Shown: one piece after another, positions 21,515 to 29,314 of the stretch
How the letters are laid out: every line of letters begins with the position of its first letter
How positions within the stretch are numbered: position 1 is the first letter of the stretch
DNA from: an uncultured Lachnospiraceae bacterium
GTDB lineage: Bacteria; Bacillota; Clostridia; Lachnospirales; Lachnospiraceae
DNA: 38,942 bases
NCBI GenBank assembly: GCA_934385475.1
Contig: CAKRPS010000022.1
Location: 1-38,942 of the forward strand
Direction: 5' to 3'
Translations under genes and position numbers: made by a program
The notes under the pieces: generated by a model
What the model was told of the DNA's origin: nothing
Database searches by the model: none
The model's input: only the letters and a program-made list of their open reading frames with translations

Positions 21515-22471
21515 ATGATAAAGATAGATTTGATCACCGGATTTCTTGGAAGCGGGAAGACGACATTTATCAAAAGGTACGTGTCCTATCTCAAGAGTCT
21601 GGGGCAGAGAATTTGCATTCTGGAGAATGATTTTGGTGCAGTCAACGTGGATATGTTGCTGTTACAGGATGTGATGGGAGAACAGTGTGAGCTGGAGATG
21701 GTGGCGGGAGGCTGTGATGCCGACTGCCACAAAAGACGTTTTAAGACCAAACTGATCTCCATGGGAATGAGAGGATTTGACAGAGTCCTGATCGAGCCCT
21801 CCGGTATTTTTGACGTGGATGAATTTTATGATTCCCTGCGGGAAGAGCCATTAGACCGTTGGTATGAGATCGGGAATGTCATCACGATCGTAGATGCGGC
21901 ACTGCGGGAAGAACTGACGGAGGAATCAGAGTATCTGCTGGCTTCGCAGCTGGCAGGGGCAGGTCAGGTTCTGCTCAGCAAGGTGCAGGAGGCGACCGAG
22001 GAAGAGGAGCAAAGGACGATCGCCCATATGAACCGGGTACTGGAACGGTTTGGGTGTAAGAGGAGATTTGCAAAGGAAAAGCTTCTGATCCGTGACTGGG
22101 ATGCGTTGACAGACGAAGATTTTCAGAGAATCATGAACAGTGGATACCGCTCTGAAAATCTCCAAAAGCTGTGGTTTGACCAGCAGGATGCGTTCCGCTC
22201 CCTGTATTATATGCACGTCAATATGCCGGAAGAGAAGCTTCGGGAACTGACAGGGAAACTTCTGGGGGATGCTTCGTATGGAAATATTATAAGGATCAAG
22301 GGCTTTATGGCAGATGGAAAAGGCGGATGGCTGGAATTAAATGCCACGAAGGAACAGTTCAGCCTGGCACCGGTAGAGAAGGGGCAGGAGGTCCTGATCG
22401 TGATCGGGGAGCAGTTGAATGAGGCGGCGATCAATGCCTGTTTTGATCCCTATATAACGGAAAGAATGTGA
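21515..22471 (+). CDS. CobW/COG0523-type GTPase
   Basis: 318 residues. COG0523 proteins are P-loop GTPases linked to metal insertion or trafficking. Visible: G1 GFLGSGKTTF near residue 8, LENDFGAVNVD, and the Walker B region VLIEPSGIFDVDEF. The metal-binding CxCC found in most members is replaced by GGCDADCHKRR, two cysteines three residues apart. The usual NKxD guanine motif reads LSKVQEA. The C-terminal CobW_C domain is present but short (RIKGFMADGKGGWLELN). ATG 21515 is chosen for GGAGAACGG and the family N-terminus. Metal specificity cannot be told. The next gene follows within 13 bases. Confidence 0.85.
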   Translation: MIKIDLITGFLGSGKTTFIKRYVSYLKSLGQRICILENDFGAVNVDMLLLQDVMGEQCELEMVAGGCDADCHKRRFKTKLISMGMRGFDRVLIEPSGIFDVDEFYDSLREEPLDRWYEIGNVITIVDAALREELTEESEYLLASQLAGAGQVLLSKVQEATEEEEQRTIAHMNRVLERFGCKRRFAKEKLLIRDWDALTDEDFQRIMNSGYRSENLQKLWFDQQDAFRSLYYMHVNMPEEKLRELTGKLLGDASYGNIIRIKGFMADGKGGWLELNATKEQFSLAPVEKGQEVLIVIGEQLNEAAINACFDPYITERM

Positions 22472-22484
22472 GGCAGGAGATAAA

Positions 22485-23912
22485 TTGAAAAAGACAGAAC
22501 ACGTGGTGGAGAAGGTACAGCCCGGCTCCATAGCGGAGGAGATGGAGATCACGCCCGGAGACGTGCTGCTTTCCATCAATGATCAGGAAATAGAGGATGT
22601 GTTTGATTATCGGTATCTCATCAAGGATGAGTATGTGGAAGTCCTGATCCGTAAGCCGGACGGAGAGGAATGGCTTCTGGAGATTGACAAGGATTATGAC
22701 GATGATCTGGGGATCACGTTTGAAAATGAATTGATGAGCGCCTACCGGTCCTGCAGCAATAAATGTATCTTCTGCTTTATCGATCAGATGCCTCCGGGGA
22801 TGCGCCCGGAGCTGTATTTCAAGGACGACGATTCGAGGCTTTCTTTTTTGCAGGGAAATTATATCACGCTGACCAACATGACAGAGCACGATGTGGAGCG
22901 TATCATCAAGATGCAGCTTGCACCCATCAATATTTCCGTACAGACGACGAATCCGGAGCTGCGCTGCAAAATGCTGAATAACCGGTTTGCGGGAGACAAG
23001 CTGAAATTTCTGGACATGCTGTATGAGGGACATGTGGAGATGAACGGCCAGATCGTCTGTTGTAAGGGTGTGAATGACGGCGAGGAGCTTCGCAGGAGCA
23101 TTACGGATCTTATGAAATATCTTCCGTTTATGAGAAGTGTTTCGGTAGTGCCGGCCGGGATCACGAAGTTCCGGGAGGGGCTGTATCCCATAGAGCTGTT
23201 TACCAAAGAGGAGGCCGGTGCTATCATTGATATGATAGAGAGCTATCAGGAAGAATGTTATCAGAACTATGGCCTGCATTTCATTCATGCGAGTGACGAG
23301 TTTTATATTACCGCAGAGAGAAAATTTCCGGAGGAGGAGCGCTACGACGGCTATATCCAGCTGGAAAATGGTGTGGGAATGATGCGCCTGTTCCGGGAGG
23401 AGTTCCGGGAGGCCCTGCAGGCTGTGAAACAGGAACCGGATTATGAGAGACGCAGACAGGCAGAGGAAAGAACCCTGACGATCGCGCCGGGTGTGCTTGC
23501 CTACAGCACCGTGAAAACCTTTGCGAAGGAGCTGATGGAGGCATTCCCCAACATTCATATTCACGTGTATGCGATCCGGAATGACTTTTTCGGGGAGACG
23601 ATCACGGTTTCCGGTCTGGTGACAGGGCAGGATCTGATCGCACAGCTCAGACAGGAGCAGGAAAAGGGGGTTCAGCTGGGAGAAACCCTGTTGATCCCTT
23701 CCACGATGGTGCGCAGCGGTGAGAAGATTTTTCTCGATGACTGCACAATGCAGGAAGTGGAGGATGCGCTGGGAATGCGCCTGGTGGCAGTGGAGTCCGG
23801 CGGCAAGGACTTTGTGGATGCGGTGCTCAGGGAAAGCTACCGTATGGACCGGGTAAATGACACGGTCGGTTATGTCAGGGCCTACGACAGGGAGAAAGAG
23901 CAGGAACGGTGA
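22485..23912 (+). CDS. DUF512 PDZ-radical SAM protein
   Basis: 475 residues. An N-terminal PDZ-like domain (about 1-70: GSIAEEMEITPGDVLLSIND) is followed by a radical SAM-like core with CxxxCxxC at Cys90, Cys94 and Cys97 (CSNKCIFCFIDQMP) and the DUF512 C-terminal region (FFGETITVSGLVTGQDLI, PSTMVRSGEKIFLDD). This family is widespread in Clostridia, often beside the ribosome-assembly GTPase der; its reaction is not established. Here it stands instead before a TetM-like ribosomal GTPase. The start is TTG at 22485 with CAGGAGA just upstream. Confidence 0.9.
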   Translation: MKKTEHVVEKVQPGSIAEEMEITPGDVLLSINDQEIEDVFDYRYLIKDEYVEVLIRKPDGEEWLLEIDKDYDDDLGITFENELMSAYRSCSNKCIFCFIDQMPPGMRPELYFKDDDSRLSFLQGNYITLTNMTEHDVERIIKMQLAPINISVQTTNPELRCKMLNNRFAGDKLKFLDMLYEGHVEMNGQIVCCKGVNDGEELRRSITDLMKYLPFMRSVSVVPAGITKFREGLYPIELFTKEEAGAIIDMIESYQEECYQNYGLHFIHASDEFYITAERKFPEEERYDGYIQLENGVGMMRLFREEFREALQAVKQEPDYERRRQAEERTLTIAPGVLAYSTVKTFAKELMEAFPNIHIHVYAIRNDFFGETITVSGLVTGQDLIAQLRQEQEKGVQLGETLLIPSTMVRSGEKIFLDDCTMQEVEDALGMRLVAVESGGKDFVDAVLRESYRMDRVNDTVGYVRAYDREKEQER

Positions 23913-23942
23913 TTTCCGGGCAACGCTTTGGAGTGAAGGACG

Positions 23943-26648
23943 ATGGAAAAGAAGATTGTTGTGGGTGTGCTTGCCCATGTGGATGCCGGTAAGACAACCC
24001 TGGTCGAAAGCATTATGTTTCAGGCCGGGGAGCTTCAAAAGCCGGGACGTGTAGATCATAGAGATACCTTTCTGGATACCGATGAGCAGGAGCGCGACAG
24101 GGGAATCACGATCTTCTCCAAACAGGCACGCTTTGCATGGAAGGGAATGGAGACGGTGCTGCTTGACACACCGGGACATGTGGACTTTTCGGCAGAGACG
24201 GAGAGAACCTTGCAGGTACTGGACTATGCCATCCTGATCATCAGCGGTGCAGATGGCGTACAGGGGCATACTCTGACGCTCTGGAAGCTTCTGGAGCGGT
24301 ATCAGGTACCTGTATTTCTTTTTGTCAACAAGCTGGATCAGCCCGGAACAGACAGCACAAGGCTGTCTGAGGAGATCAGGCAGAGGCTGGGAGAAAACTG
24401 TATTGCCTTCGGAGGAGATGCGGACTGTGTACCGGAGCAAAGTGAGAAGGAATTCCGGGAGAGAGCCGCGGTCTGTGATGATACCCTGCTGGAGAGGTAT
24501 CTGGAATGGGAAGAAAACGGACAGGGCGGTTGTCCGGTTACGACAGCCGTATTGACGGAGCTGATCGCACAGCGAAAGGTTTTCCCGTGCTACTACGGCA
24601 GTGCCCTGAAACAGAAGGGCATTGCGGAATTTCTGGATGGCCTTGCAGAATATACGCGTATGCCACAGTACGGTCAGGAACAGGGAATCCGTGTCTATAA
24701 GATTGCGAGAGACGAACAGGGAACAAGACTTACCTATGTCAAGCTTACCGGAGGCAGTCTTAAGGTGAAACAGTTTCTGGGTGAGGAGAAGGTTGACCAG
24801 ATCCGTCTGTATTCCGGAATCAGATATGAGGCAGTGCAGGAGGCGGGAGCGGGCGATATCTGCGCGCTGACAGGACTTTCTCATACTTTTTGCGGACAAG
24901 GCTTTGGAATCGAAAAGGAAGGAATCCTTCCGGCACTGGAACCGGTTATGACCTATCGGATAACGCTTCCGGAGGGAAGTGACATTCATCAGAGCTATGT
25001 GAAGTTATGTCAACTGGAAGAGGAAGAGCCCCAGCTTCATATTGTGTGGAATGAGCAGCTCGGAGAAATTCACGCGCAGTTGATGGGAGAGGTGCAGATT
25101 GAGATTCTGCGCCAGATCATCCGGCAGCGGTTTAGTATGGATGTGGAATTTGAGCAGGGAAACGTGGTGTATAAGGAGACGATTGCGGATACGGTAGAGG
25201 GGGTAGGACATTTCGAACCCCTCCGGCATTACGCGGAGGTACATCTTCTCCTTCAGCCGGGAGAGAGAGGAAGCGGCCTGCAGTTTCAAAGCAGCTGCAG
25301 CGAGGATATGCTTGACCGGAACTGGCAGAGACTGATCCTGACGCATCTGGAAGAGAAGGAGCATCTGGGAGTACTGATCGGTGCGCCGCTCACAGATATG
25401 CAGATCACGCTCGTGGCAGGAAAGGCACACCCTAAACATACAGAGGGCGGCGATTTCCGGCAGGCGACCTACCGGGCTGTACGGCAGGGTCTTTGCAAGG
25501 CGCAGAGTGTTCTTCTGGAACCGGTTTACTCTTTTCGGATGGAACTGCCCCAGACGGCTGTGGGGAGAGCCATGACAGATATCCAGAAAAAGGGAGGAAG
25601 GTTTGAACCGCCGGAGCAGGAAGGCGAGCTGGCAGTTCTGACGGGAGTTGTGCCCGTGGCGGCCATGCACGGGTATCAGACAGAGTTTATGGCCTATACC
25701 GGTGGACGGGGGAGAATGTCCACGGTTTTGCGGGGATATGAGCCCTGCCACAACGCGCAGGAGGTGATCGATGCGGCCTGCTATGAGGCAGAGCGCGATC
25801 TGGATAACCCGTGCGGTTCCGTGTTCTGTGCACATGGAGCGGGATTTGTGGTAGACTGGGATCAGGTGGAGGAGTATATGCACCTGGAGCCGGTGCTTAA
25901 CAAAGAGCACAGGGAAGAGGTGCCGGAGCAGGCTGTTATCCGCCGCAGGACGACAAAGAGCAGCAGTGCGGAGGAAGATTTCATCGGACAGGATGAGATC
26001 GAAGAGATTTTTCAGAGAACCTTTGGGACAAGCGCAAGGACAAAGCCCGGCTGGGCGAAACGGATCCGAGCTTCGCAGCCGCAGACAGACAGTGCATACC
26101 GTGGAAAAGCAAGGCCGGAGCAGGAGTATCTTCTGGTAGATGGCTATAATATTATCTTTGGATGGCAGTCCTTGAGAGAGCTCGCCTCATCGAATCTGGA
26201 TGGAGCCAGAGGTGTGCTGATGGATGTTCTCAGCAATTATCAGGGATTTTGTAAAGCGAAGATCATACTGGTCTTTGATGCCTACAAAGTGAAGGGCAAT
26301 CCCGGAAGCACCATGCGCTATCACAATCTGGACGTTGTATACACCAAAGAGGCCGAGACGGCAGACCAGTATATCGAAAAGACGGCGCACCGGATAGCCA
26401 GAGACTCTCATATCCGTGTGGCGACTTCGGACGGACTGGAACAGATGATCATTCTGGGAGCAGGTGCTGTACGGGTGCCGGCCCGGGAATTTGAGCAGGA
26501 AGTTATGACCAGATGCAGGGAGCAGCTGGAGGAATACAGGCAAAAAAGAGAGGATCAGCATGGGGACAAAACCTATCTTCTGGACGGTATGACGAAGGAA
26601 GTGGCTGATTTTCTGGAACAGCATGCACAGGAATGGAGACAGGAATGA
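23943..26648 (+). CDS. TetM-like ribosomal GTPase fused to a Rae1/YacP NYN nuclease domain
   Basis: 901 residues, about 260 longer than TetM. Residues 1-650 are a translational GTPase of the ribosomal-protection (TetM/TetO) group: AHVDAGKTTL (G1), [14 protein letters not shown] (G3), NKLDQPGTD (G4), then EF-G-like domains including TDMQITLVAGKAHPKHTEGG. A charged linker follows (about 655-720). Residues 725-875 form a NYN domain of the YacP/Rae1 type: LLVDGYNIIFGW, KIILVFDAYKV, KEAETADQYIEK and RVATSDGLEQM, which keep the acidic residues of this nuclease family. Rae1 of Bacillus cuts mRNA in the ribosomal A site, so a fusion with an A-site GTPase would tie cleavage to translation (inference). 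Tetracycline resistance is not implied. Its stop overlaps the next start (ATGA). Confidence 0.88.
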   Translation: MEKKIVVGVLAHVDAGKTTLVESIMFQAGELQKPGRVDHRDTFLDTDEQERDRGITIFSKQARFAWKGMETVLLDTPGHVDFSAETERTLQVLDYAILIISGADGVQGHTLTLWKLLERYQVPVFLFVNKLDQPGTDSTRLSEEIRQRLGENCIAFGGDADCVPEQSEKEFRERAAVCDDTLLERYLEWEENGQGGCPVTTAVLTELIAQRKVFPCYYGSALKQKGIAEFLDGLAEYTRMPQYGQEQGIRVYKIARDEQGTRLTYVKLTGGSLKVKQFLGEEKVDQIRLYSGIRYEAVQEAGAGDICALTGLSHTFCGQGFGIEKEGILPALEPVMTYRITLPEGSDIHQSYVKLCQLEEEEPQLHIVWNEQLGEIHAQLMGEVQIEILRQIIRQRFSMDVEFEQGNVVYKETIADTVEGVGHFEPLRHYAEVHLLLQPGERGSGLQFQSSCSEDMLDRNWQRLILTHLEEKEHLGVLIGAPLTDMQITLVAGKAHPKHTEGGDFRQATYRAVRQGLCKAQSVLLEPVYSFRMELPQTAVGRAMTDIQKKGGRFEPPEQEGELAVLTGVVPVAAMHGYQTEFMAYTGGRGRMSTVLRGYEPCHNAQEVIDAACYEAERDLDNPCGSVFCAHGAGFVVDWDQVEEYMHLEPVLNKEHREEVPEQAVIRRRTTKSSSAEEDFIGQDEIEEIFQRTFGTSARTKPGWAKRIRASQPQTDSAYRGKARPEQEYLLVDGYNIIFGWQSLRELASSNLDGARGVLMDVLSNYQGFCKAKIILVFDAYKVKGNPGSTMRYHNLDVVYTKEAETADQYIEKTAHRIARDSHIRVATSDGLEQMIILGAGAVRVPAREFEQEVMTRCREQLEEYRQKREDQHGDKTYLLDGMTKEVADFLEQHAQEWRQE

Positions 26649-27274
26649 CATATTATTTTGTGGATTATGAAAATGTACACAGCGACGGCATCGTAGACTG
26701 TACAGAGCTGGAGCGGGGCGATGTGGTCTGCGTGATCTATACGGAGCAGGCTAAGAATATCACGTTAGATATTATTGAGAAGCTTTCCAGGGCGGGCATT
26801 ACACTGGAGCTGGACAAGGCGGGAACCGGAGCCAAAAACTCACTTGATTTTCAGCTGTCCTCGTATCTGGGCTATGTGATAGCGAAGCATGAGAAAGAAG
26901 ATGCCGCCTATGTGATCGTTTCCAAGGACACAGGCTTCGACCGTCTGGTGGACTTCTGGGGAGAACGCGGAATACGGATTTCAAGGGCAGCAGCGCTTTC
27001 CAAAGAAACCAAGGCAGCTAAGAAAGAAAAGAAATCTGTCCAGAAACGTCCGGTCAAAAATAAAAAGGATTCGATGCTTCTGGTGACCAGGGAAGAGGTG
27101 CTGCAATATCTCTCCGAGGAGGAATATTCGGATGAGATACTGGAGATCGTGAACAGCTTTAAGACAAAGCAGGCGATCAACAATGGGCTGTCCAAGAAGT
27201 ACCGGGACAATAAGAAGAGCAGCGAGATCTACAAGAAATTAAAGCCCCTGATGAAGGAAAAGAAGAAGTCTTAG
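26645..27274 (+). CDS. NYN/PIN-like nuclease-domain protein
   Basis: 209 residues. The N-terminal domain (1-120) has the PIN/NYN pattern: YYFVDYENVHSDG, KNSLDFQLSSYLG and YVIVSKDTGFDRLVDF, with the acidic residues (Asp and Glu in VDYEN, Asp in SLDFQ and SKDTGFD) expected of a metal-dependent ribonuclease. A lysine-rich linker (about 125-145) and a small helical C-terminal domain (VTREEVLQYLSEEEYSDEI onwards) may bind RNA. ATG 26645 is chosen because it overlaps the preceding stop (ATGA), implying translational coupling to the GTPase-NYN fusion. Its position between that fusion and an RNA helicase supports a role in RNA turnover (inference). Confidence 0.82.
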   Translation: MTYYFVDYENVHSDGIVDCTELERGDVVCVIYTEQAKNITLDIIEKLSRAGITLELDKAGTGAKNSLDFQLSSYLGYVIAKHEKEDAAYVIVSKDTGFDRLVDFWGERGIRISRAAALSKETKAAKKEKKSVQKRPVKNKKDSMLLVTREEVLQYLSEEEYSDEILEIVNSFKTKQAINNGLSKKYRDNKKSSEIYKKLKPLMKEKKKS

Positions 27275-27307: not shown

Positions 27308-29314
27308 ATGAAAAACGAGACACAATCTACAACGGATGAGAAGAATACGGACAGACAGGCAGAGCAGATTCCGGAGAAGATAAAGGAGACCTACCGCAGG
27401 GCATATCTGGAGTTTGATGAGAAGGAAAGACATAAGCTTATCAAAAACTGTGAAAGACAGATCAGCCAGCTTGAGAAGCGGATTGCCCGCAAAAAGAATC
27501 AGGAGAATCATCAGATCCTTGCGGATATGAAGGATCTGCACCGGAAGACCCTGCAGATCGGCTATACGGTCTGTAAAAGGGACACCGGCCTGCAAAGACG
27601 CTTTCAGCGTGCATTGAACAGGCTGATCCGCCTGGATATGAATTTCCTGAAAAAGATGGCAGCTTCGGCACAGGCAGAGAATATTGTGGCAATGCCGGGC
27701 GCGGCAAAGCTGCTGCGGAATAAGTCGCTGTATGAAATTTACAAAGAAGACTACATGCAGTATCTGGTAGGACAGAAGATAGAAGAGTTGATGGAGGCGG
27801 AGCCGGAGAAGCAGTACCCGGAGGCAAGAGGTATGAAACGGCACTTTATCCTGCATGTCGGTCCGACGAACAGTGGCAAGACCTATCAGGCATTGCAGCG
27901 GCTCAGACAGGCGTACCGTGGTATTTATCTGGGGCCCCTGCGGCTGCTGGCACTGGAGGTGTATGACCGGATGATGGCTTCGGGCATCCCCTGCAGCATG
28001 ATCACCGGGGAAGAGGCGATCCGGACACCGGGAAGTTTTGTGCAGGCATCCACCGTTGAGATTCTGGACATCCGGGAAATGTATGATATCGCCGTGATCG
28101 ATGAGGCGCAGATGATGGCGGAGGAAAACCGGGGAAGCTACTGGACGAGAGCGATTTTGGGCATCAAGGCGGAGGAGATCCATGTCTGTTGTTCAATGAC
28201 AGCGCAGGAGCTTCTGGTTGAGATGATCGAGCGATGTGGTGATTCCTATGACATCGTACAGCATGAACGGAATACGAAGCTGGAATTTATACCGCAAAAA
28301 TATGACATGGAAACAGATGTGGAGAAAGGGGATGCACTGATCGCCTTTTCCAAGAAGAACGTGCTCGCCATTGCGGCGGAGCTGGAGAACAGGGGAATCC
28401 ATGCCAGTGTGATCTACGGCAATCTGCCTCCGCAGACAAGACAGGAGCAGGTACGTCTTTTCACTGAAGGCGTGCATGAGGTGGTAGTTGCGACGGATGC
28501 GATCGGTATGGGAATCAATCTGCCCATCCGCCGGGTTGTCTTTATGAATACGATGAAATTTGACGGAACGGACAACCGCAAGCTGCAGGCAGAGGAAATC
28601 CGGCAGATAGCGGGAAGAGCCGGAAGATACGGGTTTTATGATGTGGGCTATGTTCAGTCTGCGATGGATATGGATTATGTGGGGCAGAAACTTGAGGAAC
28701 CCTTCTATCCTCTTCGCAAAGCGAGGATCGGATTCCCAGAAGTGCTTCTGGATATTGATATGGAGCTTGATGAGATCATTGAGGCGTGGGAACACACGAA
28801 GGATCTCCCGATGTATGATAAAATATCCATGGACGAAAGTGTGAAGAAATACCAGAGCCTGAGAAGCTACCAGAAAAGGCTGCCATATCTGGAGGATAAG
28901 AAATTTGTCCTTTCACTGATCACCTGTCCGTTCGATGTCAAGGACCGGGAGGTGCTGCTTCTGTGGCTGCATTATTGCGAAAATCCGGAGAAGCAGAGAG
29001 AGTGCCCGATGCTGCCGAGAGACTTTTCCCTGGAGGGGCTGGAGTCCTACTACAAACAGCTTGACCTTTACACACAGTTCTCAAGCAGGATGAACTGGGT
29101 GATCGACCGGGAAGAGGTGGCAGGCAACCGGGAATGGGCACAGCATGAGATCGGAGAACTGCTCAAGGAGGATAAGGGACAGTTCGAGAAGAAATGCCGC
29201 GTGTGTGGAAGACCTCTTTCCTGGGATTACGGATTTCCGATCTGCGAGAAATGTTTCCGGGAGAGACGCGGCATGGAGCGTAGCCATTACAGAGGCTTTC
29301 GTTCAGGAAGATAG
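27308..29314 (+). CDS. SUV3-like RNA helicase with zinc ribbon
   Basis: 668 residues. Residues 1-170 are helical and highly charged. The helicase core resembles mitochondrial SUV3: motif I HVGPTNSGKTYQAL (about 184-195), motif II VIDEAQMM, IYGNLPPQTRQEQ, motif V ATDAIGMGINLP and motif VI QIAGRAGRYG (about 432). A C-terminal domain (500-620) follows, and the end holds a zinc ribbon: Cys630, Cys633, Cys646 and Cys649 (CRVCG...CEKC). SUV3 unwinds structured RNA for exonucleases in mitochondria. The partner nuclease here may be one of the NYN proteins just upstream (inference). Confidence 0.88.
   Translation: MKNETQSTTDEKNTDRQAEQIPEKIKETYRRAYLEFDEKERHKLIKNCERQISQLEKRIARKKNQENHQILADMKDLHRKTLQIGYTVCKRDTGLQRRFQRALNRLIRLDMNFLKKMAASAQAENIVAMPGAAKLLRNKSLYEIYKEDYMQYLVGQKIEELMEAEPEKQYPEARGMKRHFILHVGPTNSGKTYQALQRLRQAYRGIYLGPLRLLALEVYDRMMASGIPCSMITGEEAIRTPGSFVQASTVEILDIREMYDIAVIDEAQMMAEENRGSYWTRAILGIKAEEIHVCCSMTAQELLVEMIERCGDSYDIVQHERNTKLEFIPQKYDMETDVEKGDALIAFSKKNVLAIAAELENRGIHASVIYGNLPPQTRQEQVRLFTEGVHEVVVATDAIGMGINLPIRRVVFMNTMKFDGTDNRKLQAEEIRQIAGRAGRYGFYDVGYVQSAMDMDYVGQKLEEPFYPLRKARIGFPEVLLDIDMELDEIIEAWEHTKDLPMYDKISMDESVKKYQSLRSYQKRLPYLEDKKFVLSLITCPFDVKDREVLLLWLHYCENPEKQRECPMLPRDFSLEGLESYYKQLDLYTQFSSRMNWVIDREEVAGNREWAQHEIGELLKEDKGQFEKKCRVCGRPLSWDYGFPICEKCFRERRGMERSHYRGFRSGR

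Follow-up and report, generated by a model that had tools for sequence, protein, structure and literature searches.

What does a putative ribonuclease of the ribosomal A site do when it is built into the same polypeptide as a translational GTPase? The question is raised by a 38,942-nucleotide stretch of DNA from an uncultured Lachnospiraceae bacterium (contig CAKRPS010000022.1, analysed whole and hereafter called the window). In it, a complete gene of 901 amino acids at 23943..26648 on the forward strand, delimited by its open reading frame, ATG start, Pfam matches and homologues and preceded by a GGAG 9 bases upstream of the ATG (spotted by eye), joins a GTPase of the elongation factor G (EF-G) type to a nuclease domain of the Rae1 (YacP) type. 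Comparison with its relatives suggests that the fusion probably serves these bacteria as their Rae1, with the mRNA endonuclease attached to an accessory EF-G-like GTPase of a ribosome-binding type. The genome-level counts given below concern relatives of the window rather than the window's own genome, and the class and family samples are the groups of G001, the genome of locus L009 (Oliverpabstia intestinalis).

The nuclease half and the rae1 site after rlmB

The NYN_YacP domain spans residues 730-893 (26130..26621, forward strand) and is recognised by Pfam at 8.7e-47, with a score of 159.6 bits against a cut-off of 24.6 and coverage of profile positions 1-163 of 166. Compared with structures at the level of sequence only, the NYN half matches B. 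subtilis YacP (5mq8 and 5mq9) at 3.2e-27, and the Pfam and YacP matches together confirm the claim of the initial annotation that one frame joins an EF-G-type GTPase to a Rae1-type NYN domain with its acidic residues intact. The four aspartates, D733, D779, D808 and D830, align with those of B. subtilis Rae1 and are invariant in all 60 aligned fusions (the window, 36 of 120 listed proteins and 23 of 43 genome loci); they are conserved to at least 97% across the 120 listed proteins plus the window and to at least 90% in 23 free forms as well. Loss of these acidic residues across homologues was looked for and did not occur, and 26 NYN positions are at least 90% conserved in the 26 fused rows as well as in the 23 free ones. 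The passages on Rae1 describe a ribosome-associated, A-site endoribonuclease whose target is mRNA within that site and for which S1025 is a substrate, and the translation-coupled mRNA decay role first proposed for the fusion would fit this kinship.

The fused domain differs from B. subtilis Rae1 in its attachment to a GTPase and in a C-terminal tail that has often diverged. An LExxR-like tail was found in 23 of 23 free forms and, of the 120 fused proteins scored, in 40, by a crude pattern that was chosen after inspection and left 39 of 159 fused rows unscored. In the passage of PMC6613710 on B. subtilis Rae1, R166P is one of the mutations interpreted as loss-of-function. Judged from these alignments, ribosome targeting by the GTPase could explain a relaxed constraint on the tail of the fused NYN domain.

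The fusion is not a chance join or an assembly error, because the listed homologues and the genome loci share both parts. At least 120 homologues among the matches listed (7989 scored) each carry PF05991 and EF-G domains, and 43 genome loci, three or four of them interrupted by contig ends, encode fusion relatives, 18 under Lachnospiraceae titles and the remainder under other clostridial names. The observation of the fusion is not new, since a passage of Atkinson 2015 (PMC4342817) already states that the Tet proteins of ten clostridiales species gained a YacP-like NYN RNase domain, an architecture identical to that of the fusion analysed here. Within the literature searched, which consisted of open-licence papers only, the fusion is described nowhere else. 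What is added here is evidence that, in most of the fused genomes inspected, the fusion appears to have taken the place of free Rae1, together with evidence that its GTPase falls outside the curated resistance family.

Copy numbers indicate that the NYN domain of the fusion is usually its genome's only Rae1. A single NYN_YacP domain, inside the fusion frame, was found in 10 of 10 fusion genomes. Within the class sample, 249 of 391 genomes have an NYN_YacP match (248 above the cut-off), and two passing copies occur only in G143, where both are fused, and in G340, where one is fused and one is free. Three further genomes (G146, G211 and G252) have a second NYN-like match below the cut-off (21 bits, frames of 163-165 amino acids). 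The class tally comprises 130 genomes with the fusion, 22 in which the GTPase is full-length and unfused (NYN present in 15, absent from 7) and 13 in which the gene is cut, frameshifted or unclear. NYN matches occur in 180 of 200 genomes of the family sample, and in the 20 family genomes without one a GTPase at 1e-90 was found in none.

The position of the free gene provides a second line of evidence. Among nine genomes with free rae1, eight carry it directly after rlmB (9-25 bases) and before sigH, the exception being G457, where free rae1 lies elsewhere; the sigH assignment was checked at four loci, three of which score above the NCBIfam SigH cut-off and one just below (201.6 vs 208). The fused relatives differ from B. 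subtilis Rae1 in that an intact rae1 at rlmB is missing in 37 of the 38 fused genomes examined, within an inspected stretch that reached about 1.5 kb to either side of rlmB and was shorter in a few genomes; in these 37 the ancestral place has been emptied, has been rearranged or holds decayed sequence. Of these 37 genomes, 21 retain sigH downstream of rlmB, with an aligned rlmB-sigH gap of 0 to 594 bases that is no more than 60 bases in G001, G002, G003, G006 and G036.

Three of the rlmB-sigH gaps contain rae1-like relics, in G035 (53.1 bits, 3 stops), G122 (42.4 bits, 1 stop) and G096 (32.3 bits, 1 stop), and for each of them the free Rae1 of G340 is the best match. The best score among 320 shuffles of 16 gaps was 25.0 bits; an earlier control had returned no shuffled hit, with a database 20 times larger and hence a stricter threshold. 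A match in the gap of G165 was dropped as a relic candidate at 24.3 bits, below the best shuffle. The relic-bearing gaps are loci L136, L160 and L161. The free Rae1 of G340 sits on a long branch (1.24), possibly a step before loss. The natural reading of these loci, as far as sequence comparison goes, would be a series that runs from free rae1 only, through both forms, to the fusion with a relic and finally to the fusion with nothing left beside rlmB. A replaced rae1 need not keep its position after rlmB.

The rlmB site also bears on an alternative in which the fusion is an rRNA or tRNA processing enzyme whose GTPase would set the NYN nuclease in place on ribosomes or their subunits. An older proposal on NYN domains, cited in a passage of Atkinson 2015 (PMC4342817), points in this direction, as does the fact that free rae1 adjoins rlmB and an mrnC-like gene (mrnC was named by eye and position). 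Against it, the fusion lies outside the rlmB gene cluster in the genomes examined, and the Rae1 passages speak of A-site cutting of mRNA, S1025 being a substrate; a processing role is accordingly considered unlikely.

Several observations weigh against the view that the fusion is the tethered Rae1 of these bacteria. In the family sample, 5 of 180 genomes list two NYN matches, and G340 keeps the fusion plus a free Rae1 after rlmB (L070, L137). In the class sample, 92 of 391 genomes have NYN and no GTPase at 1e-90, although GTPase presence was scored on two candidates per genome, such that some absences may be false, and one of the 92 (G258) has NYN only below the cut-off; conversely, 7 of the 22 genomes with a full-length unfused GTPase have no NYN. 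As NYN and GTPase are each found alone, neither half strictly needs the other. Beside rlmB, neither sigH nor rae1 was found in 16 of the 37 fused genomes, and the ancestral gap was judged in the other 21. The NYN tree splits the fused rows, with seven free rows falling among them. The AlphaFold2 model of the fusion (mean predicted local distance difference test (pLDDT) of 80.9, predicted template modelling score (pTM) of 0.58) leaves the placement of the NYN domain open at this pTM, and the literature search turned up no experiment on a fusion protein.

The NYN domains of G253, G452, G457 and G556 are placed by the tree among the fused type. For free NYN among fused rows, a split of the fusion, a replacement or an ancestral state are all possible. 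Five genomes (G253, G556, G452, G457 and G423; L060 and L125-L128) combine a free NYN with a GTPase of the unfused clade. Nine of the 11 family genomes whose NYN frame is short were checked, and six of them carry an unfused GTPase match, interrupted by a stop in three.

Another alternative is that the two halves are uncoupled, an accessory elongation or recycling GTPase merely joined to a B. subtilis-like Rae1. Each half exists alone, G340 has both a fusion and a free Rae1, and the unfused halves associate modestly, NYN being present in 15 of 22 genomes with a full-length unfused GTPase and in 92 of 226 without (Fisher p 0.022, from a hand tally that ignores kinship and sets aside the 130 genomes with the fusion and the 13 in which the gene is cut or unclear). 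This co-occurrence, further weakened by the scoring of two GTPase candidates per genome, is only modest and is not the main evidence. Two observations oppose the uncoupled alternative and render it rather unlikely. The fusion is retained over a broad group, with at least 150 family matches listed, of which 131 lie in frames of at least 780 amino acids, 11 in frames of no more than 220 and 8 between, and in genomes with the fusion the rae1 beside rlmB has disappeared or decayed.

The GTPase half and the tetracycline protection proteins

The GTPase half has the general character of an EF2-family translational GTPase, with G1-G4, the His of DTPGH and domains III-V. The GTP-binding domain occupies residues 5-238 (23955..24656, forward strand; Pfam GTP_EFTU, 1.2e-49), with motifs AHVDAGKTT (G1), RGIT (G2), DTPGH (G3) and NKLD (G4) by comparison with protection proteins and EF-G. 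Most G1-G4 residues are invariant in 60 of 60 fusions, including D14, G16, K17, T18, T56, D75, H79, K130 and D132, and N129 is retained in at least 90% of the same set. Domain II is a weak match (EF-G_D2, 0.0003, below the Pfam cut-off) and is followed by EFG_III at residues 333-404 (Pfam), by EFG_IV at residues 406-521 (25158..25505, forward strand; Pfam and loop comparison), which carries the clade-specific loops GHFEPLRHYAEV and AHPKHTEGGDFR, and by domain V at residues 523-605 (25509..25757, forward strand; Pfam EFG_C). A C-terminal extension, residues 606-650 (25758..25892, forward strand), was defined by alignment with 16 unfused relatives, which end there. The GTPase part aligns with EF-G and TetM chains in a fold comparison that covers residues 1-638 in at least one fifth of the rows.

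The initial annotation called this GTPase TetM/EF-G-like, and the TetM part of that label did not hold. The fusion protein of the window scores 405.1 bits against the tetracycline ribosomal protection model NF012153, whose curated cut-off is 775, and the fused and unfused matches in 20 genomes (407-450 bits) likewise all fall below it. Three of the 20 genomes carry a genuine protection protein (639 amino acids, 834-854 bits) together with a separate fusion gene (415-438 bits). Nor does it score as an ordinary EF-G, with 303.9 bits against a TIGR00484 cut-off of 659.4. Judged by the curated model, and as far as sequence can tell, the GTPase falls outside the tetracycline ribosomal protection proteins, and the 'TetM' label is too specific. 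The annotation's companion claim, that the fusion would not confer drug resistance, agrees with the score (405 vs 775).

The resemblance to TetM and TetO is nonetheless real and extends to the EF-G-type domains, the GTPase motifs and a shortened loop I, which in the fusion is four residues shorter than in EF-G. The differences lie in loop III, in the curated score, in the separate clade and in the coexistence with genuine protection proteins. TetM Pro509, conserved in loop III of the protection proteins, aligns with Lys498 of the fusion, a residue that does not vary among 60 fusions, and domain IV lacks the YSPV tip. The change in the domain IV loop alone is not decisive, because Tet(M) with S508A P509A V510A can be active according to the relevant passage of PMC4750697.

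Phylogenetic trees of the GTPase recover a single fused clade of 26 rows (Shimodaira-Hasegawa-like approximate likelihood ratio test (SH-aLRT) values of 98 and 99), and fusions and unfused relatives group apart from the protection proteins and EF-G rows. The rows were hand-picked and comprise 26 fused (the window, 5 of the 120 listed proteins and 20 of the 43 loci), 16 unfused, 3 closely related protection proteins and 9 EF-G, with 4 extra unfused rows in the second tree. The nearest rows to the fused clade are unfused Clostridia proteins of the 'translation factor GTPase family', which have domain IV loops and an extension as in the fusion and end where its linker begins. The 16 that were fetched (640-655 amino acids) share the loops GHFEPLxHYAEV and xHxKHTxGGDFR and, with variations, the extension SVFCxxG..., and then stop. 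Fused and unfused members alike have a conserved Cys and other residues in this extension (GSVFCAHGAGF...YMH). Few names occur among 120 listed unfused relatives, some being 'translation factor GTPase family protein' and some TetM family, and in the literature searched no function is given for the unfused translation factor GTPase family proteins.

These results bear directly on the suggestion, made in a passage of PMC4342817 for the Tet-NYN proteins, of a resistance mechanism involving RNase activity, by which the fusion would be a tetracycline ribosomal protection protein with a nuclease added. The assignment of the fusion to Tet in Atkinson 2015 stands in contrast to the window GTPase's score below the curated cut-off for protection proteins. 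The scores below 775 in the window and in fused and unfused matches alike, the true protection proteins that coexist in three genomes, Lys498 at the Pro509 position, the absent YSPV tip, the separate clade and the lack of conserved neighbours all speak against a protection protein, and such a role is regarded as very unlikely.

Surrounding genes

The gene next downstream encodes a PIN7/NYN protein (26645..27274, forward strand; the open reading frame list places its start at 26633), and the ATG at 26645 would give an ATGA overlap with the stop of the fusion. It is followed by a gene for a SUV3-like RNA helicase (27308..29314, forward strand; DEXQc_Suv3, 208.9 bits), found in 15 of 100 family-sample genomes. 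The fusion, the PIN7/NYN protein and the helicase are three consecutive genes with RNA-acting domains. Upstream, a DUF512/TIGR03279-like radical SAM protein with a PDZ domain (22485-23912), which scores below the TIGR03279 cut-off, ends 30 bases before the fusion. An RNA-related operon as a conserved unit was considered and rejected, as just 1 of 43 loci has a match to the PIN7/NYN protein, 3 to the helicase and 1 to the radical SAM protein, in flanks of up to 8 kb, many of them shorter; the lone PIN7 match (30%) is located upstream of the fusion. All-against-all clustering of the flanking open reading frames of 44 loci found no common neighbour, the widest cluster besides the fusion itself covering 12 of the 44 loci at varied positions. 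An open frame of 852 codons on the opposite strand (22431-24989, reverse strand) runs across the initial portion of the fusion gene and is probably a by-product of codon composition.

Proposed recruitment of the nuclease to the A site

Domain IV of EF-G-type factors fills the A site, as in EF-G and TetM. Because domain IV and the NYN domain cannot share one A site, the nuclease would have to act sequentially or on a neighbouring ribosome, and the earlier picture, in which the GTPase enters and the NYN domain cuts, may be right in outline provided that the two steps follow one another, with GTP use before cutting as the presumed order. A review passage places the binding of Tet-type proteins and EF-G over the A site. 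The two halves of the fusion are separated by a linker at residues 651-727 (25893..26123, forward strand), which is modelled at low confidence except for one helix at 683-694, with pLDDT below 50 at 655-683 and 694-725. On the predicted model, a linker of ~75 residues would permit either a hand-over after departure of the GTPase or action on the neighbouring ribosome.

That the fusion binds ribosomes, cleaves mRNA and is delivered under GTP control is inferred. The GTPase would dock in the factor-binding site of ribosomes with an empty A site, placing domain IV into that site, and GTP hydrolysis would let it leave the ribosome. The tethered NYN domain, on its ~75 flexible residues, could then enter the vacated A site, or that of the neighbouring ribosome, and cut the mRNA. 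Tethering in this way would concentrate the nuclease locally where ribosomes pause, and it could stand in for the basic C-terminal tail still present in free Rae1. A more specific version, held only tentatively, is a GTP-gated two-step stall checkpoint, in which a domain-IV factor might probe the empty A site and its release might admit the tethered nuclease, with free Rae1 having decayed afterwards.

The available passages on Rae1 put forward stalling as a hypothesis for raised access to the ribosome, and in them what makes Rae1 choose a ribosome is still at that stage; the fusion would offer a case of recruitment. With its fixed GTPase tether, and with free rae1 lost or decaying in most of the fused genomes inspected, the fusion represents a natural experiment on the recruitment of an A-site nuclease. 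For database naming, some fusions are called tetracycline resistance factors, a title that the curated cut-off does not support. More broadly, the fusion suggests a role, open to testing, for a translational GTPase clade of wide occurrence.
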